Virus record (IMG/VR): IMGVR_UViG_3300033233_000061
Span: 1-46,285 of that record
Length of the DNA stretch: 46,285 bases
DNA from: a virus
Direction: 5' to 3' (one strand)
In this document: piece by piece, positions 15,358-45,092 of the stretch
How positions within the stretch are numbered: the stretch's first letter is position 1
How the letters are laid out: every line of letters starts with the position of its first letter
Notes under the pieces: model-generated
What the model saw: only the letters and a program-made list of their open reading frames with translations
What the model was told of the DNA's origin: nothing
Databases searched by the model: none
Made by a program: the position numbers and the translations under genes

Positions 15358-15520
15358 GGTCTACCTCCCCGGCCTCGTCCATATCAACGATCTCGATAGC
15401 GCCCACACGCAGCAGGTCCTCAATGACCCGCCGTGGCCAATCCACTTCTAGAATCTCACCCGCTTCGTGCCGTTCGAACGGCTCATCGCGGGTGATGCCA
15501 GTTGTGCAGAGTATCTTCAC
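15338..15520 (-). CDS. Small acidic protein
   Basis: A 60-residue acidic protein starting at GTG 15520 (GGGGG six bases upstream) and overlapping the tail-tube start by 20 bases. It reads MKILCTTGITRDEPFERHEAGEILEVD, the pattern of small beta-hairpin phage proteins found in head-to-tail connector regions. A role is unknown. Confidence 0.55.
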   Translation of the reverse strand: MKILCTTGITRDEPFERHEAGEILEVDWPRRVIEDLLRVGAIEIVDMDEAGEVDHGGDSS

Positions 15521-15530
15521 ACTTTACCCC

Positions 15531-15995
15531 CTACTCGGCGCGGTGCGTGCTGACATTGGCCACAACGCACCAAAACAGGCCCGTGCTGGCGTCCTGGGGG
15601 CCGACCTGGCGTGGCACCAGCGGCTGGATAGTCCAGTCGATGCCTTCGTTAGCGACGGTGCCTTGCTGGTGCGCCAACTCCAGTGCTGCCTCTAGATTCT
15701 CCGCCAACTCAGCGCAGGATTCGTAGATTGGCCCAGGGCCAATGTCGGCCCCGATGCGCTGCACGGCAATGACAACTTCGGCCAGGTGCACGGGCCAGAA
15801 CATGGACTGGTTGCCGTAGCTCAGCACGGTTGGTTGGATGGAACTGTTCCAGACCCAAAGGGCCGGCAGCTCGCTTGTCTCCAGGATCGTTGGCGGCGTT
15901 GTGCCAATGGTGTAGTTGCGCTTGACTCCGGCCACTGGCAACGCTGCCAGGGCCGTGATGAACTCCAGGTGAGTAGTGCGACCGTTACGGGGCAT
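15531..15995 (-). CDS. Tail terminator / minor tail candidate
   Basis: A 154-residue protein starting at ATG 15995, which overlaps the holin stop. The start has only a weak ribosome site. The order (connector, holin, this gene, tail tubes) and the alpha-beta pattern (THLEFITALAALPVAG, FWPVHLAEVVIAVQRIGAD, YESCAELAENLEAALE) fit tail terminator proteins, which are about 130-160 residues and cap the tail tube at the head end. No specific motif confirms this. Confidence 0.5.
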   Translation of the reverse strand: MPRNGRTTHLEFITALAALPVAGVKRNYTIGTTPPTILETSELPALWVWNSSIQPTVLSYGNQSMFWPVHLAEVVIAVQRIGADIGPGPIYESCAELAENLEAALELAHQQGTVANEGIDWTIQPLVPRQVGPQDASTGLFWCVVANVSTHRAE

Positions 15996-28931: not shown

Positions 28932-29366
28932 CTATCGGGCATGGTCGTTGCCAAGACATGCCACTATGGCATCCCAGTCGTCTGGCCGCCAAACGTAGAC
29001 TTCCGCTGGTGTCTGGCGCAGCGCCTCCAGCCATTGCTGTTGGGCGGCCGTGAGCTTGCCACGGGCAGTCTTCAACTCGGCAAAGATCAGGCGGGCATCG
29101 CCTGGCCGGGCATCTGCCCTGACGAGCACAAGATCGGGAAACCCGGCTGGTGAATGGATGGACCGCCAAGTGTGGTAGCACAGCCAACCATAGAGACGGG
29201 CCAACTGGCGCACCTGGCCCTCGAACTCGCTCTCCTTGATGGGCAGCGGCCCGTTCTTCAGTCCACGCATGATTACCTCGACGTCAGCTAGTTCGGCCTT
29301 CAGCCGGTCGCGGTACTCCTGGCATATAACCAGCTCCTCCTCAGGCGTGCCACGGACGACCGGCAT
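28932..29366 (-). CDS. VRR-NUC family nuclease
   Basis: A 144-residue protein from ATG 29366, overlapping the csf3 stop. The N-terminal half is a helical segment (EEELVICQEYRDRLKAELADVEVIMRGL). The rest is a compact PD-(D/E)xK nuclease: ESEFEGQVRQLARLYGW, then GFPDLVLVR with catalytic Asp, FAELKTARGKLTAAQQQWLEAL with the ExK pair and Q-W that mark the VRR-NUC family, and WRPDDWDAI. These enzymes act as Holliday-junction or flap nucleases in phages. It is coupled with the CRISPR-Cas operon but is also common alone in phages. Confidence 0.85.
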   Translation of the reverse strand: MPVVRGTPEEELVICQEYRDRLKAELADVEVIMRGLKNGPLPIKESEFEGQVRQLARLYGWLCYHTWRSIHSPAGFPDLVLVRADARPGDARLIFAELKTARGKLTAAQQQWLEALRQTPAEVYVWRPDDWDAIVACLGNDHAR

Positions 29367-30088
29367 CAGCAGTTACCCTGCCGCTCTTCGCCACCGTTAC
29401 TGGGAGGCATGTAACACATGGCCTGGTTGGCAGATTCGTAGTAAGGCGGGTAGTAACCCCAAAACACCTGCCGTATTCCGGGTGCTACCAGTCGCTGCGT
29501 CTCTGACGTCACCGGGACCGATCGCTGCGGCACACCGGCAACAATGACACTCTTGTCCTCGCTCATCTCTTGCACTTCCCATCTGAGAACCCGACCCCAA
29601 CCGTAGACACGCTTCTTGCCAATTGCCGCGATCGTCGCCAACAGGTCTTTGATAGCAGCAGCATCACCAACTGCCCACCAGCGGACCCAGGGCGCAACAC
29701 GATAGAAGACTGGCATGTGGTACGCCTTGTAACGCCCCTTGCTGGTCTCGATCCGACTTACAGCAACATCCAAGAGGTCGGTATGCTTGCCCGAGTCCTC
29801 ACGCTTGTTCCAGTAATCGCGGCCCTCAGCGAAAGGCCGGCCCCACTCAGCAAACGAGCAGGCGTAATAGCGATAGTCACCGTCGTAGACCATCAGCAGG
29901 GGAAGCGTTGGCGCCATCATCTCTCTCGAAAGGGCAGCCAGCGAACCCTGTCCAGGGATGCTTGCCTCTGGCTGGCCATTGAACTGGCGGCGGCACGCCT
30001 CGTAGAGCAGTATGCCGTCCAGCGGCAGATACGGGTCAGAGATGACGCCACAACGAAGCCAAGCGGTGATACAGATTGGTCTAAACAT
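29366..30088 (-). CDS. csf3: Type IV CRISPR Cas5 subunit Csf3
   Basis: A 240-residue RAMP-fold protein, last gene of the Cas operon. The start ATG 30088 overlaps the cysH stop by eight bases. The N-terminus MFRPICITAWLRCGVISDPYLPLDGILLYEACR and the glycine-rich loop GKKRVYGWGRVLRWEV (residues 157-172) are hallmarks of Csf3, which in type IV complexes caps the Cas7 backbone and would hold the 5-prime end of a guide RNA. It also contains an aromatic centre (HMPVFYRVAPWVRWW). No Cas6 gene lies nearby, in line with subtype IV-B. Confidence 0.8.
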   Translation of the reverse strand: MFRPICITAWLRCGVISDPYLPLDGILLYEACRRQFNGQPEASIPGQGSLAALSREMMAPTLPLLMVYDGDYRYYACSFAEWGRPFAEGRDYWNKREDSGKHTDLLDVAVSRIETSKGRYKAYHMPVFYRVAPWVRWWAVGDAAAIKDLLATIAAIGKKRVYGWGRVLRWEVQEMSEDKSVIVAGVPQRSVPVTSETQRLVAPGIRQVFWGYYPPYYESANQAMCYMPPSNGGEERQGNC

Positions 30089-30881
30089 AGATCGCCAGCT
30101 TCGGGAATTCGGCTACCAGCCGATTCCACAATCCTGGGTCGAGACGCTTCAGATAAGCGTAGCGGCCAAACCCAACGGCGGCGGCACCGAGGACTGGAGC
30201 AATCCTCATCTCCTTGCGATCAAGCCCTAGCGCCGCCATCTTGTCATATGCCGGGTTGTACGGTACCTGGAATGTGGCCAGGTAGGCCCAAATATCGTCA
30301 ACGCTCCAGAAGGTGAGCGGGCAGAGATGCCAGGTGCCATCCTCCTGGCAAAAATAGAACTCGCCCTTACGCAGAGCATTGAAATGCCGACCAGTGCTTT
30401 CGTCTGCCCGCAGGCCAATCGCAACGGTCTCCAGGCTGAAGCGCTGGACAAACTCGGCTGAGGGCTCCTGGATCAGATGCTGGCCGAAATTGAACTCCAG
30501 GTCCGGCGTGCTAGTTGGGTGGCCCCAATAGCCGCCCTGGCGACACATTTCAAGCAGTGATGGCTTGGCAGCAATCACCGTGACGTTGGCTGTGGCGGCA
30601 ATGAACTCGTACGTGTCACCAAGCTGGGCACCATCATCGAAGAACGCCGCCGGCGCCTCGGGGACAATCGAGCGGACAAGATGCAGCAACACCGTGCTAT
30701 CCTTGCCGCCCGAAAAGGCGACGCCGATTGGGCCTGCCAGGGCAGCTTTTTCAATCAAACGCTTGGCCCGTTCGACCCTGCGCCTGAAAGAAGCAAGCTG
30801 CCCCAGCAAGCAGTCCGCCTTGCGGACTACTTCTCCTGGCCGCGTTTGTCGGCCATATCTCACCTCCTCATTGCATAGCAT
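30081..30881 (-). CDS. CysH-like PP-loop protein of type IV-B locus
   Basis: A 266-residue member of the PAPS reductase/ATP pyrophosphatase superfamily. The PP-loop is SGGKDST (residues 57-63), followed by FFDDGAQLGDTYEFI, AIGLRADESTGR, CPLTFWSVDDIWAYL and YNPAYDKM. This gene is a well-known companion of type IV-B CRISPR loci, where its job is unproven; the related DndC protein works in DNA phosphorothioation. It overlaps csf2 by 14 bases and csf3 by eight. A strong AGGAGGTGAG precedes a short out-of-frame ATG, so the exact start is unsure. A role in real sulfate assimilation is unlikely in this context. Confidence 0.9.
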   Translation of the reverse strand: MLCNEEVRYGRQTRPGEVVRKADCLLGQLASFRRRVERAKRLIEKAALAGPIGVAFSGGKDSTVLLHLVRSIVPEAPAAFFDDGAQLGDTYEFIAATANVTVIAAKPSLLEMCRQGGYWGHPTSTPDLEFNFGQHLIQEPSAEFVQRFSLETVAIGLRADESTGRHFNALRKGEFYFCQEDGTWHLCPLTFWSVDDIWAYLATFQVPYNPAYDKMAALGLDRKEMRIAPVLGAAAVGFGRYAYLKRLDPGLWNRLVAEFPKLAIYV

Positions 30882-31833
30882 TCAGGAGCTCCCGGATGGC
30901 AGCAGCATTGTCGGACAGGTGCTTGTCGTAGGCCGCGCCAGCCGGCAGGGCTACCTGCGTACCCTGCGCTTTCAGCCGTGGGTTGATCTCGCACCAATCG
31001 AACTGCACGGCAATCTTGCCCATCCCGACCCGACTCATGCCGCCGATGTACGGCCGCTTGGAGAACACTGCCAGACAGGACAGAAACGCTTCGTATTCGA
31101 GTTCGTCCACATCATGCAGAAGGATTTCCCAGTAAAACTCACTGCCGGCGGCAAAGGTCTCAACGAAATAGCGCATCTGCTGGTGCTCGCCCACGGAATC
31201 ATCTGTCACATTCTCCCCCTGGCGCTGCTTCTCCCGTTTCGCGGCCGCTGACGCTTCGAGAAGGTGCCGAACCTCAGGAGCAATCAGTAAGCGCAGATTC
31301 TCGTTCTTCTCGTCGTCGCGCCGGGTGTAGGCCTCTTCCTGAAGCATTTCCCAGACGGACCGGTCCTTGTTGGCAAAACGGTCCGGGACGATCAAGGCAG
31401 TTTCTCGGCAAAGAGGGAACAGTTTGCCGACTGTAAGCTTGCCCTCCATGATCTGATTGCCCATCGCGCCACCAAACACAGAAACAAGCGGGATCAGGCG
31501 GCGGAGCTCACGAGCAGCATCAATATCCAGGCCACGATCGCCGACCTTGGTAAGGGCACCACCAGAGAAGAGAAAGTAGAAGGCCGGCAAGGGCAGGCCG
31601 TGCACTTCCCCTGTCTCCTCGTCCACGCCATAGCCGAGCCGGCGGCACATGTAGAGCATGCCGCAATCGCGCAACTGGCCACGAACACTATTGCCGGAGA
31701 TGATCGGGATTTCTTCGATCCCATCGGGGGTAACGACCTTCTCGCGCCGGAGCTTGGCATTGATCCCGAGCGTCTCACCGATATGAGAAATACTGGACAA
31801 AGCGGTCACAAGACCCTCAAACTGGTAATCCAT
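30868..31833 (-). CDS. csf2: Type IV CRISPR Cas7 backbone Csf2
   Basis: A 321-residue RAMP-fold protein starting at ATG 31833 with AAGGAG six to seven bases upstream. It contains IISGNSVRGQLRDCG (about residues 44-58), the conserved Cas7 motif after the first strand, FGGAMGNQIMEGKLTVGKLFP (about 120-140), and the glycine-rich KRPYIGGMSRVGMGKIAV (259-276). In type IV complexes several Csf2 subunits form the helical filament along the RNA. Start and stop overlap cas11 (17 bases) and cysH (14 bases), so all are translated together. Confidence 0.85.
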   Translation of the reverse strand: MDYQFEGLVTALSSISHIGETLGINAKLRREKVVTPDGIEEIPIISGNSVRGQLRDCGMLYMCRRLGYGVDEETGEVHGLPLPAFYFLFSGGALTKVGDRGLDIDAARELRRLIPLVSVFGGAMGNQIMEGKLTVGKLFPLCRETALIVPDRFANKDRSVWEMLQEEAYTRRDDEKNENLRLLIAPEVRHLLEASAAAKREKQRQGENVTDDSVGEHQQMRYFVETFAAGSEFYWEILLHDVDELEYEAFLSCLAVFSKRPYIGGMSRVGMGKIAVQFDWCEINPRLKAQGTQVALPAGAAYDKHLSDNAAAIRELLNAMQ

Positions 31834-32257
31834 CACTCTCTCCTTCCTGCCAGAATGCATCATCGGCGATCTCGGCATCGTCCCATTCATCCATCTCGGC
31901 GGCAGCCCGTTCGGCCCGTTGTGCCTTACGTTCTTCCGACCAGACTCGCACTTGCAGCACCAGCGTCGTCGCTTCATCGCGAAATAGACGCAGCAGTTGC
32001 CTCTCCTCCGCGGGAGAAAGACTGTTGAGCAGTGTCTCGATCTGAGAGCGCTGGGCCTTATTCGTGCCCAGTACCGGCACCTGCATCTTAGAACAGAGTG
32101 AGTTGACGAATCGGCTCAGGCTGTTCGTGTACGCCGCGCTGCGCACGTTGTCCGTCAGGATGCCCCAGTACTTCAGCCGCTTCTCGCCCCACACCGACCA
32201 GTCCATGCTCAGATGGACCGCCTGAATCAGTCTCGCTGCTGTCTCTTCCAGTTCCAA
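31817..32257 (-). CDS. Cas11-like small subunit of type IV-B complex
   Basis: A 146-residue, mainly helical protein. TTG 32257 is chosen as start because a perfect AAGGAGG lies six bases upstream; ATG 32206 is a weaker choice. Helical segments include LEETAARLIQAVHLSMDWSVWGEKRL, SLSRFVNSLCSKM and AEERQLLRLFRDEATTLVLQVRVWSEERKAQRAERAAAEMDEW. Size, position between csf1 and csf2 and all-helical nature match the small subunit of IV-B loci, which packs along the Cas7 filament. It overlaps csf1 by 170 bases, which is unusually long. Confidence 0.65.
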   Translation of the reverse strand: MELEETAARLIQAVHLSMDWSVWGEKRLKYWGILTDNVRSAAYTNSLSRFVNSLCSKMQVPVLGTNKAQRSQIETLLNSLSPAEERQLLRLFRDEATTLVLQVRVWSEERKAQRAERAAAEMDEWDDAEIADDAFWQEGESDGLPV

Positions 32258-32918
32258 CGTCTGCCTCCTTCTGGGCCAGAAATAGAGCCAAGGCGAATAG
32301 CGATGAACCACGCCACGGTCGGAGTGATCCTTCGAGCACCCGCCAGGAGCTCAAGCCAAACTTCACAATGCGATGGGCGAGATAATCCCCAGTCTCAATT
32401 TCGTGCTTCGAAAAGAGCGTGAGGAGTGAGCACATTGCTGCGAGCAACGACTCCAGTCGTGCCATATCCGGCACCACCCGCTGTTCCTCGAATTGCCATA
32501 GGCCGGGCTGGGCACGAAAGAGCAGGTGTTTTTGGCCCGAATCGGCGATGACAGCCAGGATCGCCTCAGGCAATAAGGCGACCATGCGTTTCTTCTCAGC
32601 CTTCGAGAGTGGATACCATTCACCAGCCACGACAAAGTGGCTGTAGTTGCGCATGCACTGCGGCTTGTCCTTGCCAAGCCGAGCTTGCAGAAGAGCACTG
32701 CGCTCGTCGGCACAGAAAGCACAGGCCGGGCAGACCCAGTCGCTTTGCCACTGCCGCGCCTTGTCGTGGTCGGTGAACGTCACCTTCACGAACTCGCGAT
32801 AGGGCACCGCCCGGCCGGGCAGGACAGCGCCACAGAGCCAACATCTACCCTCAGCTGGAACCGCAGCGGCAACTTCGGGCTCACCAGCAGCTCGATAGAG
32901 CAATTCAGTCGCGGTCAC
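32088..32918 (-). CDS. csf1: Type IV CRISPR large-subunit-like Csf1
   Basis: A 276-residue protein from GTG 32918 (GGGGAG ten bases upstream, 14-base overlap with the gene before). A zinc-finger signature is formed by CWLCG (26-30) and CPACAFC (63-69), the mark of Csf1, followed by NYSHFVVAGEWYPLSKAEKKRM and a helical C-terminal half (LESLLAAMCSLLTLFSKHEIETGDYLAHRI). The last 60 residues after AQKEAD are Gly/Ser/Glu-rich and overlap the small-subunit gene in another frame, so a frameshift in the assembly or during translation may be involved. In other type IV systems Csf1 is the Cas8-like subunit. Confidence 0.75.
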   Translation of the reverse strand: MTATELLYRAAGEPEVAAAVPAEGRCWLCGAVLPGRAVPYREFVKVTFTDHDKARQWQSDWVCPACAFCADERSALLQARLGKDKPQCMRNYSHFVVAGEWYPLSKAEKKRMVALLPEAILAVIADSGQKHLLFRAQPGLWQFEEQRVVPDMARLESLLAAMCSLLTLFSKHEIETGDYLAHRIVKFGLSSWRVLEGSLRPWRGSSLFALALFLAQKEADVGTGRDSSETDSGGPSEHGLVGVGREAAEVLGHPDGQRAQRGVHEQPEPIRQLTLF

Positions 32919-33183
32919 TGGCGCTGTTCTCCCCGCAATCCAAGACCTCACGACGCGCGATCTGCCCACAGGCAAGCCACCTCGGGTTCCACTTCTGCAC
33001 CGCCGTCCGGCCCGGGTGATGCAACCGCCGTAGCTCATGTGCGATCTGGCATTTCCAGATGGGGTGTTGGTCCGGATCGCGCGCTATGGATACGTTCTGC
33101 AGCCAGCTGCAGTCCATGCACATGCCGGTCGCGAACCCGAATGCTCGGTGCATTCGGGCAATGGCTTCAGGGTCCTTGCCCAT
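32905..33183 (-). CDS. Small Cys/His-rich protein at head of cas operon
   Basis: A 92-residue protein starting at ATG 33183 and overlapping csf1 by 14 bases. It has MCMDCSWL (CxxC), KCQIAHELRRLHHPGR (C-x3-H and HH) and LACGQIA, which could bind zinc. N-terminal MGKDPEAIARMHRAFGFATG is helical. It is translationally coupled to csf1, so it may serve the IV-B complex, although the known IV-B gene set does not include it. It could equally be a general phage zinc protein. Confidence 0.6.
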   Translation of the reverse strand: MGKDPEAIARMHRAFGFATGMCMDCSWLQNVSIARDPDQHPIWKCQIAHELRRLHHPGRTAVQKWNPRWLACGQIARREVLDCGENSASDRD

Positions 33184-37853: not shown

Positions 37854-39128
37854 TCATGACGCCAACCCCCATTGCCCGGTTGACAGAGTGACAACTTTGC
37901 CTTGACGCCTGAGTTCGCTCAGCCGTGCCCGCAGCTTGGATTCGTCGTTGTCGTCCAACTCCAGGGCCTCGGCCAGCTCACGGTTGCTCATGGCGCCGTT
38001 TCTCAGCGCTGAGAGGATACGGGATGCAAGAGGTGCGTGCTCAGCAAATTCAGGCGTTGCGGTCAAGTCTGTCTGGCGCAGATCAACCTGCTCAAGAACC
38101 CCATCGGCGCGCTCTTGGATGGTCATGACCAGAGCATGCTCAGGCAGGCTGCCGCGATAGTTCGCCTTGTGACACGTCAGCCGCACGGCAGTCGTGTGTT
38201 CATCGCGACGTTTCGATTCCATTTGCCAGACAATGCGGCTGGCGTTGAAGAAGTACACCGATCCAAACATCTTGTCGGCGCCAGTTGCAAACGGGCTCTT
38301 ATTGGGGTGGTGCAGACAGAGAATGCCAACATCGCGCAGTGTGCCCAGGGCCCTGAACATCGCTAGCGCTGAATCAGCCTCCTCCGGGGCCCCATTTGCA
38401 GCCATCCCCAAAGAGTCCACCACAACCATGCCGATGTTGTGTTTCCGAACCTGTGTTCGGATAGCACCGATTGACGATGCGAGCGGCGCCGCCTGCCGCT
38501 GGTGCAACACGGCCGGCGCATTAGCACGCCGGCCTTTGGCGATTGCGCGGAGACGCTCTGCATGGGTTTCGTAGTTGGTTTCCCAGTCGAGATACAACAC
38601 ATTGCGTGGCTTGCCGACACAGCGGCCAATGATGGCGTCGCCGGTTTGGATCGAGTAGGCCATGGCCAGTGCAAGCATGCTTTTGCCGCTCATGCCAGGC
38701 CCAAACAGGAGTGTTGGCCCGTCCAGGCTGATGTACGGTGACAGCAGCCAGGTATCGCCAGCTCGCGGTGAAACCGTGGCCAGATTGACTGGTTCCTCGC
38801 CAGACCGCCAGCGGTCAATAGCGAGTATGCTGACCTGGTTGAACGCAGCATGCCAGTCAAACTCCAGCCGCTCCTGCAGCGTCTTGGACAGCGATGCCCG
38901 TGTCTGGGCCGACATCAGGTTGAGGCGGCCGTACCATAGGAACTCGTCTGCTTCGGCAAACATGCTCGTGACGGTGCATTCTGCGGTTATGTCATCTTTA
39001 CCCTCCCGTATGTATTGGAGACTGATAGTGACGCCGCTGCCCGCCCAAGTAAACTCGAACCCGTCATCTATCGTGTTCACCGTTGGTGGAGGCAGCGCGG
39101 GGGCAGTCGAAGAGGTTATGGACGGCAA
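37854..39128 (-). CDS. RepA/RecA-fold ATPase (AAA_25, helicase-like)
   Basis: The 424-residue protein starts at TTG 39128 with AAGGAG seven bases upstream; the frame extends further but overlaps a promoter-leader with an inverted repeat. Walker A is GPGMSGKS (about residues 143-150) and Walker B GMVVVDSLG (about 233-241), followed by LCLHHPNKS and a sensor-like RIVWQMESKR. This is the RSF1010 RepA-like/RadA-like hexameric ATPase group. The C-terminal 70 residues are a winged helix (RILSALRNGAMSNRELAEALELD ... LRRQGKVVTL). It is the best candidate for the phage replicative helicase or loader. It is transcribed from the promoter at 39298-39326. Confidence 0.8.
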   Translation of the reverse strand: MPSITSSTAPALPPPTVNTIDDGFEFTWAGSGVTISLQYIREGKDDITAECTVTSMFAEADEFLWYGRLNLMSAQTRASLSKTLQERLEFDWHAAFNQVSILAIDRWRSGEEPVNLATVSPRAGDTWLLSPYISLDGPTLLFGPGMSGKSMLALAMAYSIQTGDAIIGRCVGKPRNVLYLDWETNYETHAERLRAIAKGRRANAPAVLHQRQAAPLASSIGAIRTQVRKHNIGMVVVDSLGMAANGAPEEADSALAMFRALGTLRDVGILCLHHPNKSPFATGADKMFGSVYFFNASRIVWQMESKRRDEHTTAVRLTCHKANYRGSLPEHALVMTIQERADGVLEQVDLRQTDLTATPEFAEHAPLASRILSALRNGAMSNRELAEALELDDNDESKLRARLSELRRQGKVVTLSTGQWGLAS

Positions 39129-39157
39129 TGAGGATCTCCTTGCATATAGACGGGGAA

Positions 39158-39238
39158 GCACAGAGCCCGACCCTTCATGCCGCCACACTCCCCTGGCAAG
39201 GACCATGGCAACACGACATGACTGGTCGGGCTCTGTGC
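39158..39238 (-). promoter_or_regulatory. 15-bp inverted repeat in leader of the ATPase gene
   Basis: GCACAGAGCCCGACC (39158-39172) is the exact reverse complement of 39224-39238, with 51 bases between. It lies in the roughly 160-base leader between the promoter and the TTG start at 39128. It could fold in RNA to control readthrough or translation, or be a two-site operator for a dimeric regulator. Confidence 0.6.
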
Positions 39239-39297
39239 TCAACTATCTTGTTGAAGGTGTGGTCTGTCATGGCCTTATCCTTGCCAGGGATACCTTG

Positions 39298-39417: not shown

Positions 39418-40269
39418 CTACGCCACTGGCTCGTTGACGGCCCCTGGCGCTGTGATGATGTTGGTGTGCCCCATGATCGCCTGGACGTAGGGTTCGGATA
39501 TGGGCAGCCCTTCTAGCTGGCGCCACGTCACCCAGAGGTGCTGCAAGAATATCTTCACCATCTTGCGCCGGGCGCGGTTGTGGATGTGCGCATCCGTAAA
39601 GTCCCAGGAACGGGCTTTGCGATGGGCAGCAGGGTGGCGGCACTCTGTAGCTACGCAGGCACACTTGGTGCAGTATGGCTCAGGGTGCTGCCGCCGCTGT
39701 TCCGCCTTCTCTTCGTAGTAGATCTCGGCGTAGATAGGCGTCTGCATGCGGATGAACTCGTCACCGATCAGATACAGCAGTGACTTGAGCCGGCGGTTGT
39801 AGGGAAGAACCTGGCCCTTCGTTGGTGCATCTATGTGCCCGTCAATGACTGCGTAGCCGCAATAGCGCCACAGTTTGGAGACAGTGTCGAAACGACCAAT
39901 GTCATCGATCTGCGCCAAGAGCTGAGCAGCCATTTTCCCTTCGCTCAGTCCACGTATAGACGTGATCCATTCCCAGATTGGGCCAGTGGTGGCCTTGGCA
40001 GCCTTAATCATCTGCCGACGGGCTGATTTTAGGGCACTATCAAGCCCGAATCCAGCGCCTTTTGCCCCACGGCCAAACGTGTCTATGAAATCCTGCTCCA
40101 TACCAGCGTCCATCTGGCACACGCCGCGCTTGATTGCGCTAATGCGGAGCAAATGGCGCTTGCGCATTTCTTCAAGCTCTTCGAAGAAGAGATACTGCTG
40201 CCAGAGCATGGACAGCTTGTGGATCTTCTGCGGACGGTCGACTTCGGCTTCCTGCAATTCATCGGACAT
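39418..40269 (-). CDS. IS110-type Transposase_20-domain protein, no DEDD domain
   Basis: A 283-residue protein starting at ATG 40269 with TAGGAGG upstream. Residues 1-95 are a helical coiled-coil-like part; residues about 105-200 carry the Transposase_20 pattern of IS110/IS116: ISIRG-LSEGKMAAQLLAQIDDIGRFDTVSKLWRYCGYAV (in two parts), YNRRLKSLLYLIGDEFIRMQTPIYAEIYYEEKA. A Cys-rich insert (CTKCACVATECRHPAAH) and NRARRKMVKIFLQHLW follow. The N-terminal DEDD RuvC-like domain of IS110 enzymes is absent, and the usual QSG serine position reads PTKG, so it is unlikely to recombine DNA. It may be a domesticated DNA- or RNA-binding protein. Confidence 0.7.
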   Translation of the reverse strand: MSDELQEAEVDRPQKIHKLSMLWQQYLFFEELEEMRKRHLLRISAIKRGVCQMDAGMEQDFIDTFGRGAKGAGFGLDSALKSARRQMIKAAKATTGPIWEWITSIRGLSEGKMAAQLLAQIDDIGRFDTVSKLWRYCGYAVIDGHIDAPTKGQVLPYNRRLKSLLYLIGDEFIRMQTPIYAEIYYEEKAEQRRQHPEPYCTKCACVATECRHPAAHRKARSWDFTDAHIHNRARRKMVKIFLQHLWVTWRQLEGLPISEPYVQAIMGHTNIITAPGAVNEPVA

Positions 40270-40280
40270 TGGTTCCTCCT

Positions 40281-40686
40281 ATTAGCGCACTCATGATATG
40301 GGTTTCACCTTTCGGCTAGCTCGCACACTAAGGCTGGGTTCCACTCACTCTTTGGCTCGCACACGTCAGCTGGGTTTCACATGGTGAGTGGCTCGCACAC
40401 CCGGCTTGGGTTTCACGGCTCTTGTGGCTCGCACAGCAATGCTGGGTTCCACATGGCGAGTGGCTTGCACTCGAAGCTTGGGTTACACGAGCACCGTGGC
40501 TCGCATGCTTCTCTTGGGTTTCACTACTAGCATGGCTCGCACCTCGGGCGTGGGTTTCACCCGGCCAATGGCTCGCACTTGCTGCCTGGGTTTCACGCGT
40601 TCGATGGCTCGCATGTAGGGCATGGGTTCCACAGTGGCCGTGGCTCGCACCGCTCAGCTGGATTTCACTAGCCGCCTGGCTCGTCT
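40281..40686. repeat. Array of 23 ten-base boxes at exact 18-bp spacing
   Basis: Box A (TGGCTCGCAC) and box B (TGGGTTTCAC) alternate, each separated by exactly eight variable bases, giving a 36-bp unit and an 18-bp half-unit. Twelve A boxes start at 40281 and every 36 bp to 40677; eleven B boxes start at 40299 and every 36 bp to 40659. A and B share the pattern TGGSTYKCAC. All 22 eight-base spacers differ. The array lies in a 420-bp gap without genes, directly upstream of the Transposase_20-like gene. It has the look of a protein-binding array such as iterons or a centromere; the spacers are far too short for a CRISPR array. Confidence 0.9.
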
Positions 40687-44598: not shown

Positions 44599-44634
44599 CT
44601 CCTTGCCGGCCTATTCTGGCCCGGCCGGCGGGGC
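44599..44634 (-). repeat. GC hairpin before ribosome site, copy 1
   Basis: On the minus strand, GCCCCGCCGGCCGGGCC, then AGAATAGGCCGGCAAGGAG: GCCGG and CCGGC runs can pair and the element ends in the ribosome site of the gene at 44590. Two similar copies precede the genes starting at 45043 and 45425. Confidence 0.65.
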
Positions 44635-44644
44635 GGTTGGTGTA

Positions 44645-45049: not shown

Positions 45050-45087
45050 CTCCTTTACCGGCCTATTCTCGCCCGGCCGGCAGGGTC
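45050..45087 (-). repeat. GC hairpin before ribosome site, copy 2
   Basis: The minus strand reads GACCCTGCCGGCCGGGC, then GAGAATAGGCCGGTAAAGGAG. It is nearly identical to the copy at 44599-44634 over 30 bases and again ends in a ribosome site (gene start 45043). Confidence 0.65.
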
Positions 45088-45092
45088 GTTGA

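Follow-up and report, generated by a model that had tools for sequence, protein, structure and literature searches.

The stretch of DNA analysed here (the window) is a virus record of 46,285 nt, which carries on its minus strand the five genes csf1, cas11, csf2, a cysH-like gene (CasCysH) and csf3, in that order, all recognised by PADLOC and Pfam profile searches as they had been read in the earlier note (Table 1). The cysH-like gene is located between csf2 and csf3, overlapping both, and successive genes share 8-17 nt where csf2, cysH and csf3 start.

Table 1. Components of the type IV-B operon and of the Tas-associated locus in the window, with their best supporting matches.
Feature	Position	Strand	Supporting evidence
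csf1, type IV Cas8-like large subunit, zinc finger CxxC...CxxCxxC	32088..32918	-	PADLOC Csf1_0_IV 8.8e-22
cas11 ORF, small subunit; true start uncertain	31817..32311	-	PADLOC typeIV_Cas11 1.1e-24
csf2, Cas7-like backbone subunit	30868..31833	-	PADLOC Csf2_0_IV 2.1e-76
cysH-like (CasCysH), PP-loop ATP pyrophosphatase fold	30081..30881	-	Pfam PAPS_reduct PF01507 7e-19
csf3, Cas5-like subunit	29366..30088	-	PADLOC Csf3_0_IV 8.7e-47
Tas homologue (Nop domain)	39418-40269		phmmer 5.3e-29 to 9mty, 6.1e-9 to TasH structures (21kl)
TIGR array	40299-40686		22 alternating 10-nt repeats, internal spacers all 8 nt, 36-nt period

The operon had been delimited earlier at 29366-33183, of which 29366-32918 stands, with a GTG at 32918 as the most likely start of csf1, while the remainder belongs to a separate 92-aa ORF (32905-33183). 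This start coincides with the edge of a block common to another viral contig, L005. The 92-aa ORF, present only in the window and in its 95%-identical relative L005, was rejected as an extra subunit, as was the VRR-NUC gene (28932-29366), which was found only in L005, plus a VRR hit in L094. Regarding the individual subunits, the PADLOC match of cas11 starts at ORF residue 20; TIGR03116 also matched csf3 (7e-13, under the curated cut-off of that profile), and a Csf2 profile built from the window and its relatives matched the solved type IV-B Csf2 (7jhy) at 1e-54. The AlphaFold model of Csf1 (pLDDT 85.9) aligned over about 195 residues with two type IV-A effector chains, 8rc3_G (Z 12.1) and 7xg1_A (Z 11.3), and in Foldseek the single match below 0.001 was a type IV-A Csf complex, followed by a second one of the same kind (0.0025), with all further rows at chance level, so that only type IV-A Csf complexes match well. 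The tail of Csf1, overprinted by cas11, is predicted to be disordered from residue 225 (last 50 residues). Moreover, all four zinc-finger cysteines of Csf1 are 84-97% conserved (91 loci), and G157, G163, G165, R189 and P192 of Csf3 are invariant over 89 loci. The profile matches of the five genes and the fold match of Csf1 are not the product of chance.

By every testable defining feature, the operon is a member of type IV-B, combining type IV Csf2 and Csf3, a zinc-finger Csf1, Cas11 and an adjacent cysH-like gene. Neither dinG (type IV-A) nor a Cas10-like gene (type IV-C) was found among ten neighbouring proteins with four profile libraries, and a search of the whole record gave no PF10040 match indicative of cas6. 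The reading of the locus as a phage-borne type IV-B operon that lacks an array was upheld; indeed, the RAMP proteins matched the Csf2 and Csf3 profiles, and a placement outside these families was not seen. As for the claim that an array is lacking, the window contains no CRISPR-like repeat and no Cas6, but an array for a different kind of guide RNA does occur, at 40299-40686. No Rfam RNA was found in the window, and a conserved non-coding RNA adjoining the operon was considered and rejected, since in relatives the space separating csf3 from cysH is occupied by small regulators, methyltransferases or cas6 and not by an RNA common to them.

The window itself is a tailed phage, as denoted by its genes for terminase, portal, head protease, major tail protein, beta clamp and an AAA_25 helicase (37854-39242). 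Its first and last 127 bases form an exact repeat, and consequently the contig is probably complete and circularly closed, at about 46.2 kb; the phage setting that the earlier note had proposed for the operon is thereby confirmed. Nearly all likely genes are on the minus strand, where the operon lies inside an unbroken run of genes bounded by the beta clamp and the terminase. We infer that it is co-transcribed with replication and packaging genes, with which the gene spacing is compatible. The phage may or may not be virulent: its genome gave no tyrosine integrase or recombinase, yet it does encode ParB and a small HTH regulator. Near the end of the window, two 37-nt repeats (44603-44639 and 45055-45091; 86% identical), rich in inverted CCGGCC, stand upstream of small genes and are possibly regulatory.

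An alignment search with Csf2 retrieved 77 viral and 15 cellular contigs, and tblastn added 71 plasmids and a single isolated phage (Skermania phage SPI1). The five genes occur together within 3.5 kb in 73 loci; viral loci, with the window and SPI1 counted, make up 63 of these. Among the remaining loci many are cut by contig ends, and cysH or csf1 went undetected in a few. CysH and the zinc-finger Csf1 are kept in nearly all relatives, and their absence in close relatives was not seen. In the Csf2 tree the window falls within a clade of 43 rows with support 96/97, of which 39 are viral and 4 come from metagenome-assembled genomes; the actinobacterial plasmid loci lie outside it. The statement that such loci are known mainly from plasmids therefore understates the viral share, given 77 viral contigs with this kind of Csf2 and a published viral type IV-B (PMC10848311). 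In fact, viral type IV-B is already known, with prophages and several lytic phages also cited in that report (PMC10848311), and the window adds one member.

Compared with plasmid type IV-B, represented by the Csf complex of Mycobacterium sp. JS623 (7jhy), the window shares csf1, cas11, csf2, csf3 and the cysH-like gene, as well as the lack of array, cas6 and dinG, whereas it is phage-borne, belongs to a separate, mostly viral clade, has cysH between csf2 and csf3, and encodes a Csf2 31-35% identical to those of two aligned plasmid loci. The Fuxivirus system is likewise a viral type IV-B with a CysH-like protein; however, it comes from an archaeal virus (a Bathyarchaeia virus) and includes a two-repeat mini-array and cas4, in contrast to the window, which has no CRISPR array (PMC10848311). 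The five genes recur in an isolated phage, Skermania phage SPI1 (KR011061, orf40-44), where they bear only hypothetical annotations; its Csf2, however, is 34% identical to that of the window and its cysH is the last gene of the operon.

Several further features were observed around the relatives' operons. In L065 (11667-14874), L074 (11633-14002) and L093 (10962-13406), a ParB-like gene and a second, longer PP-loop protein are found beside the type IV-B operon, pairs that we take to resemble IbrA/IbrB. Plasmids L003 and L102 encode a DUF3440 protein nearby. Genes resembling modification enzymes are inserted in the operons of L043 (12135-12548), L045 (12128-12526), L053 (4167-4646) and L029 (9253-9972), judged by eye as SpoU-like methylase, methyltransferase and tgt-like (RNA or nucleic-acid modification). 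Additionally, L017 (about 2150-2900) and L011 (about 2430-2680) contain long, apparently non-coding runs of 5-nt GGCNN units, in which the last two bases differ from unit to unit.

The operon is both maintained and mobile. All five reading frames are intact and under purifying selection, with dN/dS between the window and L005 of 0.04 for csf2, 0.05 for cas11, 0.10 for cysH, 0.14 for csf3 and 0.26 for csf1. L005 is 95% identical to the window at the nucleotide level over 29322-32917, while the TerL proteins of the two are only 30% identical; hence, the operon moves between phage backbones.

Within the operon, csf1, cas11, csf2 and csf3 evolve together and cysH is exchanged independently. Pairwise identities among the former four genes correlate at 0.69-0.84, and that of cysH correlates with each of them at only 0.35-0.45. 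Between L015 and L018, Csf2 is 89% and Csf3 90% identical but CysH 37%, and in L007 and L010 the respective values are 82%, 75% and 33%, with cysH downstream of csf3 in all four loci; conversely, L033 and L086 share 44% identity in Csf2 but 70% in CysH. When gene splits with support of at least 0.95 were compared with supported core splits, 13 of the 21 strongly supported cysH splits conflicted with the core tree, against 1/23 for csf1, 0/15 for cas11, 1/23 for csf2 and 2/23 for csf3. Fast evolution alone would be expected to yield weaker support, not supported conflict. A further candidate swap, between L065 and L066, was rejected because different cysH copies had been compared, and this pair was left out of the final test. 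No mention of independent cysH exchange was found in the literature searched, a search that left out Pinilla-Redondo 2020, Moya-Beltran 2021 and Al-Shayeb 2022; within the same scope, the size of the viral set and the frequency of cas6 were also absent.

Regarding the enzymatic site of CasCysH, the SGGKDST PP-loop is intact in the window, and over 69 loci S57, G59, K60 and S62 are 100% conserved and D61 94%. A pattern search recovered the reductase cysteine motif of ECG[LI]H type in none of the 69 type IV-B CysH proteins. The structural model (pLDDT 91.7) resembled APS/PAPS reductases, FAD synthase and ATP sulfurylase, all tied at Z about 18. CasCysH has the fold of PAPS/APS reductase (CysH), DndC and other N-type ATP pyrophosphatases in common but, unlike the reductase, combines an intact PP-loop with the lack of the cysteine motif, which suggests that it is probably not a reductase and would fit an ATP pyrophosphatase, a point also argued elsewhere (PMC8175902). 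This reading sits badly with the label "inactivated" given to CysH (PMC11656645).

Standard type IV-B loci, to our knowledge, have neither cas6 nor CRISPR arrays. Nevertheless, at least 18 of the 77 viral contigs carry Cas6 within about 4 kb of csf2 (two pairs being nearly identical), calls of PF10040 or PF08798 type that were backed by PADLOC and Pfam for the loci tested. Operons of this kind, including L044, L069, L075, L078, L083, L084, L088, L026, L090 and L091, also encode cysH and cas11. Furthermore, L047, a member of the window's 43-row clade, has a single 35-nt spacer between two perfect 28-nt repeats immediately before csf1, on its upstream side (127-217), and L089 has a four-repeat CRISPR array near cas6 (about 15500-15710). 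The L047 spacer had no protospacer in the viral contigs or plasmids, and its repeat occurred in no other viral contig. Since cas6 and arrays are present in these contigs, some relatives look crRNA-guided.

A second putative RNA-guided system is present in the same genome. From its sequence features, 39418-40686 looks like a complete TIGR-TasA system: TIGR arrays are defined by alternating repeats of 8-12 nt, spacers of about 9 nt and a 36-nt unit (PMC12045711), and the array in the window agrees with this definition. No exact match to the tandem spacers was found in the window or in the relatives' loci. Tas and type IV-B occur together in 3 of 78 viral records. L008 has a tas gene and a similar array, and L060 has a tas gene. 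A weaker fourth hit, in L093, was discarded as a 451-aa ORF that looks like an IS110 transposase.

The uses suggested previously for the complex, against other mobile elements or in binding non-CRISPR RNA or host guides, are plausible. Our preferred reading, tentative and held at somewhat less than even confidence, is a guide-RNA complex whose guides have an outside source, CysH serving it as an exchangeable effector that uses ATP. By homology to the plasmid complex (PMC7937560), Csf2 and Cas11 would form a helical RNA-binding filament, with Csf3 as the cap at the RNA 5' end and Csf1 as the putative large subunit. Since the phage has no recognisable CRISPR guide, the RNA that it loads during infection would have to be provided in trans, the likeliest candidates being crRNAs of the host or small RNAs that the host has processed. 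CasCysH may then act by activation or adenylation on a substrate, which might be the nucleic acid held by the complex, and the phage would profit through counter-defence or by keeping out mobile elements that compete with it. This proposal accounts for cas6, the mini-arrays and the conserved Csf3, yet the only published type IV-B complex bound heterogeneous RNA, in which co-expressed crRNAs were not enriched (PMC7937560). The lack of cas6, CRISPR array and Rfam RNA in the window and of a protospacer for L047 also counts against it, and the cas6-bearing loci, a minority, may work differently from the window.

A rival reading is an RNA sponge, in which the complex would coat host crRNAs or small RNAs, not as guides, and so disarm RNA-guided defence, a direct gain for a phage if host CRISPR is the target. 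The sponge accounts for the missing guide source of the window and for the published heterogeneous RNA, of uniform length, on which the purified plasmid complex assembles (PMC7937560); we consider it rather unlikely, as it leaves the near-universal cysH, the strongly conserved residues of Csf3 and Csf1, and the cas6 genes and small arrays of related viral loci unexplained. Less probable still is a purely regulatory role, in which the complex would hold one fixed small RNA, or a few, of phage or host origin to control genes of either, and would take no part in defence or competition. The window has no variable CRISPR spacers, and the position of the operon in the beta clamp-terminase run implies probable expression with phage replication genes; against such a role stand its mosaic relationship to L005, its spread over diverse phages and plasmids, which suits a portable module better than a regulator tied to one genome, and the failure to find a conserved RNA. 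That the complex draws guides from the phage's own TIGR array, for which the presence of this 36-nt-period array in the same genome speaks, is very improbable, because a Tas homologue accompanies so few viral type IV-B records and the array adjoins its own tas gene, the two systems looking independent. Finally, the lack of array and nuclease might denote a non-functional remnant gained by recombination, the least credible of these explanations given five intact frames, the low dN/dS (0.04-0.26) and the retention of the five-gene set in 63 viral loci; the invariant residues of Csf3, a putative guide-end binder, likewise argue against a degraded complex.

Extending the preferred guide-RNA reading to the family, viral type IV-B could be an effector platform that keeps its RNA-binding complex and swaps CasCysH variants with different substrates so as to keep pace with host or competitor. 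Its guides would come from host arrays or, in certain lineages, from a mini-array and a cas6 that had been captured; we regard this broader scheme as possible but doubtful. Reviews up to November 2025 describe the function of type IV-B as open, CysH as an inactivated reductase and phage type IV as merely less common (PMC12669027, PMC11656645, PMC8175902). In this context, the viral loci provide a large comparative set for type IV-B and argue for an active-type ATP site retained in CysH, besides demonstrating its exchange independently of the complex. Guide use is directly testable in the relatives with cas6 and mini-arrays, and Skermania phage SPI1 offers an isolated phage in which the operon is open to deletion.
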